This document shows, one piece after another, positions 8,086 to 53,875 of a stretch of DNA of 64,000 nucleotides. A program made the translations under genes and the position numbers. Position 1 is the stretch's first letter; the number at the start of each line of letters is the position of its first letter. The stretch is from the NCBI RefSeq assembly GCF_032191775.1, contig NZ_CP132507.1, positions 2,319,001 through 2,383,000 on the forward strand, in the 5' to 3' direction. Below the pieces are notes generated by a model that did not search any database, was not told the origin of the DNA, and saw nothing but the letters and a program-made list of their open reading frames with translations. The DNA comes from Rhodoferax mekongensis (GTDB taxonomy: Bacteria > Pseudomonadota > Gammaproteobacteria > Burkholderiales > Burkholderiaceae_C).

Positions 8086-8257
8086 GCCCATACTTTACTT
8101 TCCCCAAAAATCATTCGGTGGCACAATCCGCCCTGCAATGAAGGCCCTTCCCATGCCACAGTCGCATCCGCCAATCGGTTCAGCCGTGTCGCGGAAGGTT
8201 AATTAACCAGCTTTAACCAGCTAATGTTCCCTGAAGGGGAACGGAGGTCAGCGAAAT

Positions 8258-45935: not shown

Positions 45936-46715
45936 ATGTCCTCCCCCAAAGTTTTATTCGGCTTTCATGCCGTGGGCGTGCGCCTGAAGACCGCCCCCCA
46001 ATCCATCATCGAGATTTACTACGAGCCCACCCGCCGTGACGCGCGCATGCGCCAGTTTCTCGACAAAGTGGCAGAAAGCGGTGTACGCCTGATCGAAGCC
46101 GACGGCATGCGCTTGGCCAAACTTGCCGGTAGCCACGGCCACCAGGGTGTGGCCGCCCGGGTGCAAGAGATCAAGCAGGTCCATTCCTTGGATGAGTTGC
46201 TCGAAAACCTGGAAGCCACCAATGCCGAGTTGCCCGTGGCTGAGCGCACCAACCCGCTGATTTTGGTGCTGGACGGCGTGACTGACCCGCACAACCTTGG
46301 CGCTTGCTTGCGGGTAGCTGATGGCGCCGGTGCGCATTGCGTGATTGCCCCCAAAGACCACGCGGCCGGCATCAACGCCACCGTGGCCAAAGTGGCCAGC
46401 GGTGCGGCCGAAACCGTGCCGTACTTCATGGTGACCAATCTGGCCCGCACGCTCAACGAGCTCAAGGAGCGCAATATCTGGATCATAGGCACCAGCGACC
46501 AGGCCACCAGCAACCTGTACCAGGCCGACCTGAAAGGGCCGGTGGCGTTGGTGTTGGGCGCCGAGGGCGATGGCATGCGCCAGCTCACTGCCAAAACCTG
46601 CGACCAGCTGGTGAGCATTCCCATGCAGGGCGCGGTGGAAAGCCTGAATGTGTCGGTGGCCAGTGGCGTGTGTTTGTACGAAGCCCTGCGTCAGCGCACA
46701 GCTGCCAGCAAGTAA
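45936..46715 (+). CDS. rlmB: 23S rRNA (guanosine-2251-2'-O)-methyltransferase RlmB
   Basis: A 259-residue SPOUT-class methyltransferase acting on G2251 in the ribosomal P-loop. An N-terminal substrate-binding domain (FGFHAVGVRLKTAP) is joined to the SpoU domain with LILVLDGVTDPHNLGACLR, KVASGAAETVPYF, LVLGAEGDGMR and IPMQGAVESLNVSVASGV, which form the trefoil-knot SAM site. Length and motifs are standard. It begins a plus-strand run with a short lipoprotein and a membrane protein. Confidence 0.96.
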   Translation: MSSPKVLFGFHAVGVRLKTAPQSIIEIYYEPTRRDARMRQFLDKVAESGVRLIEADGMRLAKLAGSHGHQGVAARVQEIKQVHSLDELLENLEATNAELPVAERTNPLILVLDGVTDPHNLGACLRVADGAGAHCVIAPKDHAAGINATVAKVASGAAETVPYFMVTNLARTLNELKERNIWIIGTSDQATSNLYQADLKGPVALVLGAEGDGMRQLTAKTCDQLVSIPMQGAVESLNVSVASGVCLYEALRQRTAASK

Positions 46716-46737
46716 ATCAACCCTTCCGGAGAGTTTC

Positions 46738-47097
46738 ATGATTGCTATAACGTCAATAGCTGCCCGCGCAATAGCGACGAGCGCTGCAGCCGTTTTTCTT
46801 TTGATGGGTTGTACCCAGGAGCAACAAAACAAGCTCGGCCGTGAAATCCAGAACTGGACTGGCACCAACGGCGTGCTGGAGTTCTATGCCGGCGACAAGC
46901 TGGTGCGCCGCTTCATCAAAATCGACAAACTCTCCACCGCCATGGGTACCGATGACGGCAAGCCACGCCCCTACCGCTATGGCTACGGGGTGCTCGACGA
47001 GAACTTCAACTTCGTGGCAGATAGTGGCGAAAAGAAGGTGTATTTCGAAATCAGCGATTACGGCTCGAACTACCTCTTCTTCGAGAACCCACGTTAA
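46738..47097 (+). CDS. Small lipoprotein of unknown function, N-terminus repeat-encoded
   Basis: A 119-residue lipoprotein. The signal peptide runs from MIAITSIAARAIATSAAAV to the lipobox LLMGC, and the mature part is a small, probably beta-rich domain (VLEFYAGDKLVRRFIKIDKL, YGYGVLDENFNF, YFEISDYGSNYLF). No family is recognised. The start has CCGGAGAG six bases upstream. The first 18 or so codons coincide exactly with a copy of the dispersed palindromic repeat, so the signal peptide seems to have been built from a repeat. It follows rlmB by 22 nt. Confidence 0.8.
   Translation: MIAITSIAARAIATSAAAVFLLMGCTQEQQNKLGREIQNWTGTNGVLEFYAGDKLVRRFIKIDKLSTAMGTDDGKPRPYRYGYGVLDENFNFVADSGEKKVYFEISDYGSNYLFFENPR
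46741..46795 (+). repeat. Dispersed palindromic repeat, copy 5 (inside a coding region)
   Basis: ATTGCTATAACGTCAATAGC continues as TGCCCGCGCAATAGCGACGA and GCGCTGCAGCCG. It aligns over about 50 bases with the intergenic copy at 53823 (TGCTATAA, AGCTGCTTGCGCAATA, GACGAGCGCTAGAGGCC). Here it begins one codon after the lipoprotein start. Confidence 0.75.
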
Positions 47098-53822: not shown

Positions 53823-53875
53823 ATGCTATAAAAGTAGGAGCTGCTTGCGCAATAAAGACGAGCGCTAGAGGCCGA
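53823..53875 (+). repeat. Dispersed palindromic repeat, copy 6
   Basis: AATGCTATAAAAGTAGGAGC continues as TGCTTGCGCAATAAAGACGA and GCGCTAGAGGCC. It lies between thiolase and fadB-like genes within a minus-strand operon, so it is transcribed and could influence relative expression. Confidence 0.78.

Follow-up and report, generated by a model that had tools for sequence, protein, structure and literature searches.

Signal peptides change quickly in evolution, and where they come from can seldom be seen. The locus studied here, a short lipoprotein gene in the 64,000-nt stretch of DNA that was analysed (the window), raises the question of whether a bacterial signal peptide can be traced to a dispersed DNA repeat. 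We propose that it can: the signal peptide is most probably a co-opted copy of a repeat of ~65 bp, a reading to which we give a probability of roughly 0.88. Since the DNA source is identifiable, recurs elsewhere and can be compared with and without the repeat, the origin of new signal peptides becomes directly testable. The parts of the locus are as follows.

45936–46715, + strand: SpoU-family rRNA methyltransferase gene, rlmB-like (PF00588 and PF08032), the conserved upstream neighbour
46728–46733, + strand: ribosome-binding-like GGAGAG (GGAG at 46728–46731, 6-nt spacer to the ATG), outside the repeat, read from the sequence
46738–47097, + strand: 119-residue lipoprotein gene (ATG at 46738, 119 codons, stop codon at 47095–47097)
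46742–46807, + strand: repeat-derived segment, as a 66-column matrix window (core 46743–46789), codons 2 to about 21–22 of the signal
46801–46812, + strand: lipobox codons L-M-G-C with Cys25, adjoining the 3′ edge of the conserved part of the repeat, read from the sequence

The ORF is as described in an earlier note on this stretch, with its start codon at 46738, 119 codons, GGAG ahead of them and Cys25 in a lipobox; the signal peptide quoted there is present too, but reads MIAITSIAARAIATSAAAVFLLMGC, an F after V having been omitted. The protein had no matches in Pfam or NCBIfam; its mature domain is kept among rlmB-linked orthologues, with rlmB upstream at 69 of 81 orthologous loci. The lipobox Cys is kept in the orthologues examined; the lipobox itself is L-M-G-C here and L-x-[GAS]-C in most orthologues, the model being [LVI][ASTVI][GAS]C. 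The n-region in this genome is weak because Lys5, present in most relatives, has been lost (T5). Elsewhere in the window, a sucA RNA motif (RF01070) scores 81 bits at 8162–8253.

The consensus of the repeat, TTGCTATnAATTnAGTAGCTGCTnGCGCAnATTCCACGGGCGCTAGnGGCnnATTTGA, spans ~65 bp and was taken from 54 copies that look non-coding whichever of the six frames is read; among them, conserved blocks alternate with freely varying positions. Allowing two mismatches at most, the pattern GCTAY-N9-AGCTGCYYGCGC matches at least 525 times in the 3.89-Mb genome, versus 14 for a reversed-pattern control, and the 525 matches are split about equally between strands. A profile that combined the window with 35 further sites of the same genome, the lipoprotein copy having been removed, detected nine good copies within the 64-kb window. 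Sites other than the lipoprotein copy are these.

815–861, − strand: repeat copy, 41.1 bits
11668–11708, + strand: repeat-like intragenic stretch, 25.1 bits
14065–14111, − strand: repeat copy with a near-perfect dyad (AGCTGCTAGCGC...GCGCTAGCAGCT), 34.3 bits
38499–38545, − strand: repeat copy, 41.4 bits
42894–42940, + strand: repeat copy, 40.8 bits
53824–53870, + strand: repeat copy quoted in the earlier note, 46.0 bits
60532–60577, + strand: repeat copy, 46.0 bits
63816–63857, + strand: repeat copy, more diverged, 29.1 bits

One of the six reading frames of the repeat is mostly open, giving A-[MIT]-K-x-x-A-A-[CR]-A-x-x-x-G-A, in which small hydrophobic residues come after a start that contains Lys. 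Coding signal in the same frame flanks 37 of 165 copies on both sides, and 34 of these 37 use the two mostly open frames. The description of the element as an intergenic repeat was therefore too narrow: non-coding copies exist, but many others lie in frame within genes. Copies occur in frame in the middle of enzymes at genome coordinates 170900 (ThiL-like), 657827 (MnmE-like) and 2454821 (DsbB-like), and in the reverse frame at 2117734 (NadE-like) and 684421 (KsgA-like), these names being read from translations. The enzymes look conserved, and their copies, in the main open frame and in one reverse frame, recall the in-frame Rickettsia palindromic elements (RPEs). Copies are also found at the N termini of CysN-like and MetH-like cytoplasmic proteins (2434529 and 424233), so N-terminal use extends beyond secretion signals.

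Within the lipoprotein gene, positions 46744–46785 align with 53825–53866 without gaps at 32 of 42 identical bases (~76%), so that the match claimed to be base for base is so in the sense of being ungapped. It also runs further than the ~18 codons first proposed, from codon 2 to about codon 21. An HMM of ~50 other copies from this genome, with the lipoprotein copy left out, gives it 27 bits. A 66-column matrix built from the 54 non-coding copies scores 41.3 bits at the lipoprotein start, compared with a background maximum of 32.7 bits among 768,322 positions of the same genome. The 5,000 recodings of the same peptide, for which random synonymous codons were drawn at the codon frequencies of this genome, average −15.5 bits and reach 25.6 bits at most. 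Because the score exceeds both background and recodings, the similarity resides in the DNA, beyond what a hydrophobic peptide would bring, and the DNA of the signal peptide evidently derives from the repeat, which bears out the main proposal of the earlier note. Signal peptides are generally Ala-rich and AT-rich codons are favoured at gene starts, so that signal codons and start-region codon bias might resemble the repeat by accident; such convergence is nevertheless highly improbable, as none of the 5,000 recodings reached the observed score, orthologues without the repeat score far lower and the presence of the repeat-type signal is strictly tied to genomic repeat density, as the following comparison documents.

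Orthologues were gathered by a genome search and a scan of named genomes. The 81 in our tree comprise 45 with a repeat-type signal, 7 with a weak one and 29 with an unrelated signal, their mature domains being about 72–97% identical (72–90% for those with unrelated signals). Scores reach 56 bits for repeat-type signals, nearly all of which share the same register (in frame, offset by 71 nt from where the Cys codon ends), and lie at about −25 to −69 bits for orthologues without the repeat. Three loci (L179, L201 and L164) have a repeat-type or decayed repeat-type signal that is 12 nt longer. In 50 sampled genomes with an orthologue, the repeat-type signal was present in 29 of 29 with at least 11.5 copies per Mb and in 0 of 21 with at most 8.3 copies per Mb (Spearman 0.86 between repeat density and repeat-type signal), counts that overstate independence because the genomes are related. 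Lineages without the repeat thus have different signal peptides, as had been predicted, and the case that would have spoken against a repeat origin, the same signal protein sequence encoded by DNA unlike the repeat, was sought among the orthologues and not found.

The spacing at the locus bears on how the repeat came to occupy this position. Between the rlmB stop codon and the lipobox Cys lie 68–148 nt with the repeat and 69–119 nt without it; a simple 65-bp addition is therefore not visible, and this near-equal spacing led us to reject a net insertion at the locus. The spacing is compatible with replacement of a patch, or with insertion followed by trimming. The idea that a repeat had been converted into a secretion signal thus holds as to the source of the signal; conversion as a mechanism is conjectural, with spacing alike in both classes. 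In a tree of rlmB and the mature domain the repeat-type orthologues do not form a single clean clade (7 to 9 changes), and well-supported branches force at least five changes for the repeat group. Several independent gains are possible; one origin with later losses is favoured by the shared register, although the alignment is short.

We suggest the following course of events. The open frame of the repeat, when placed behind a start codon and before a lipobox or AxA site, would serve as a Sec signal peptide. In an ancestor of the bacteria now rich in the repeat, a copy would have replaced the earlier signal peptide, and some descendants would later have lost the repeat-type signal or let it decay. 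The signal would be used for Sec export and for lipidation at Cys25, by analogy with Sec and Lsp signals in general. The lineage concerned is a group of freshwater bacteria related to Rhodoferax, in which the repeat would act as an export signal.

The lipoprotein is not alone. A scan for further cases covered 1.26 Mb, about a third of the genome, plus targeted stretches. Repeat starts in the same frame were found at the following genome coordinates, the first two being the ones also compared in orthologues and the others seen in this genome.

222179, − strand: DUF1775 protein
3225528, − strand: SLT-domain lytic transglycosylase
342037, − strand: another lipoprotein
996580, − strand: TctC-like receptor
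3598848, − strand: UrtB-like permease
131489, 530783, 3034165 and 3659185: other repeat-frame gene starts

Besides the SLT and DUF1775 genes, this genome holds about eight further candidates for repeat-made signals. The sample contained four or five clear cases (up to six with doubtful ones) versus ~0.2 expected, a rough figure in which in-frame copies are spread evenly over coding DNA, with gene density and secreted fraction assumed. Across genomes, repeat-type signals occur in 11 genes for the SLT transglycosylase (40–70 bits) and in 12 for DUF1775 (26–65 bits); unrelated signals precede the DUF1775 orthologues of eight repeat-poor genomes (−24 to −55 bits). By these comparisons, the repeat also makes up the putative export signal of at least two other, unrelated exported proteins besides the 119-residue lipoprotein. 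A cytochrome-like gene at 376228 (+ strand) has an apparent signal from a repeat in the opposite orientation (MKNKPLAPVRYARAAMKWIAIALLAGAGPARA).

The signal-peptide-like character of the main open frame could also be read the other way round, the repeat family having been born from a spreading segment that encoded a signal peptide. We consider this very unlikely, given that the at least 525 copies lie on both strands, many of them intergenic or in the reverse frame within proteins, that the repeat is common to at least three unrelated genes and that it is scattered across other genera of the family. Its distribution there is patchy, strong in some other genera and missing from most; the named relatives are Rhodoferax and other Comamonadaceae.

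If the signals are co-opted repeat copies, does the repeat DNA within them continue to matter? At four-fold degenerate sites where the amino acid is unchanged, we found higher conservation between species in the repeat-made signals than in the mature domains of the lipoprotein (0.74 versus 0.55), the SLT transglycosylase (0.92 versus 0.56) and DUF1775 (0.80 versus 0.52). The non-repeat control for DUF1775 was reversed (signal 0.49, mature domain 0.57, n = 79), and the amino acids of the signals are less conserved than those of the mature domains in all three proteins. Of 41 lipoprotein orthologues, 38 have GCT at codon 8 and 21 have AGA at codon 7, although these triplets account for 14% of Ala and 4% of Arg codons, respectively, in this genome. 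The conservation of synonymous sites suggests that the repeat DNA itself is maintained, as would follow either from exchange with other copies or from selection acting on the motif.

These conserved synonymous sites could also mean that the repeat serves first of all at the nucleic-acid level, as a protein-binding site or an mRNA structure near the start codon, and is kept for regulation, encoding a signal only secondarily. The conserved blocks between free positions, unlike neutral decay, fit such a role, as does the consensus, which has an imperfect dyad and folds as two hairpins (−19.5 kcal/mol). Three observations make it unlikely all the same: in 144 copies, the pairs of the proposed stems lack compensatory changes, their paired fractions being those expected by chance; gene starts hold only a minority of copies; and a signal peptide is present in every orthologue, whether or not it carries the repeat. 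An RNA-structure constraint on the repeat, its stems predicted in silico but lacking covariation, was accordingly rejected, and no match to the repeat was obtained in Rfam even at a permissive threshold. Returning to co-option as an export signal, a broader version of it is conceivable, and we put it forward tentatively: the repeat may be a reusable signal-peptide cassette, placed repeatedly at the starts of exported-protein genes (~15–20 per genome by extrapolation) and homogenised at the DNA level by exchange, so that unrelated signals evolve in concert.

Precedents are known in Yersinia RU-2 and in RPEs. The RU-2/YPAL repeat makes part of the YPO1552 signal (Delihas 2007, PMC2759123; PMC2229807), a case confined to a single locus among close relatives in Yersinia, where the element is MITE-like and 168 bp long; by contrast, the repeat described here, at ~65 bp, makes nearly the whole signal, is kept in dozens of species and recurs in unrelated genes. 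RPEs lie in frame within genes (PMC2229807, PMC10969869), and the present repeat resembles them in being dispersed, imperfectly palindromic and partly open, with in-frame copies in many protein-coding genes. It falls outside the Rickettsia RPE family proper: RPEs are ~105–150 bp and inside proteins, whereas this repeat is ~65 bp, unrelated in sequence and from a Comamonadaceae genome, and a recurrent signal-peptide role of RPEs is not reported in PMC2229807 or PMC10969869. What is new here is that repeat-made signals recur in unrelated genes, are conserved throughout a lineage and can be compared cleanly with and without the repeat. No description of the repeat was found in the open literature, searched by sequence and by taxon, with subscription papers outside reach.

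REP elements with their RAYT transposases (Nunvar 2010, PMC2817692; GTAG class, PMC3733652) are the other natural comparison. Like them, the repeat is short, has dyad symmetry and exists in hundreds of copies, and the GTAG/GGAG-like tetramer before its palindrome may correspond to the tag of REP elements; its 525 copies with an imperfect dyad fit the usual REP definition of more than 100 short, palindromic copies per genome. Consensus positions 14–17 are G/A, T/G, A and G (GTAG, GGAG or ATAG), with conserved sequence also upstream. Unlike REP elements, it is longer and has extra conserved blocks, and the association with a RAYT is lacking: the one RAYT-like gene in the genome scores 42.7 bits versus the NCBIfam cut-off of 80, has no repeat copies near it and is equally present in repeat-free and repeat-poor genomes. 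A RAYT as mobiliser of the repeat was rejected, the gene being present everywhere and away from copies.

In Comamonadaceae, knowledge of the repeat would aid start prediction and gene annotation. Genome G179, which belongs to another genus of the family, carries a form of the repeat with AGCTGCTTAGGC in place of AGCTGCTTGCGC, which suggests lineage-specific versions.
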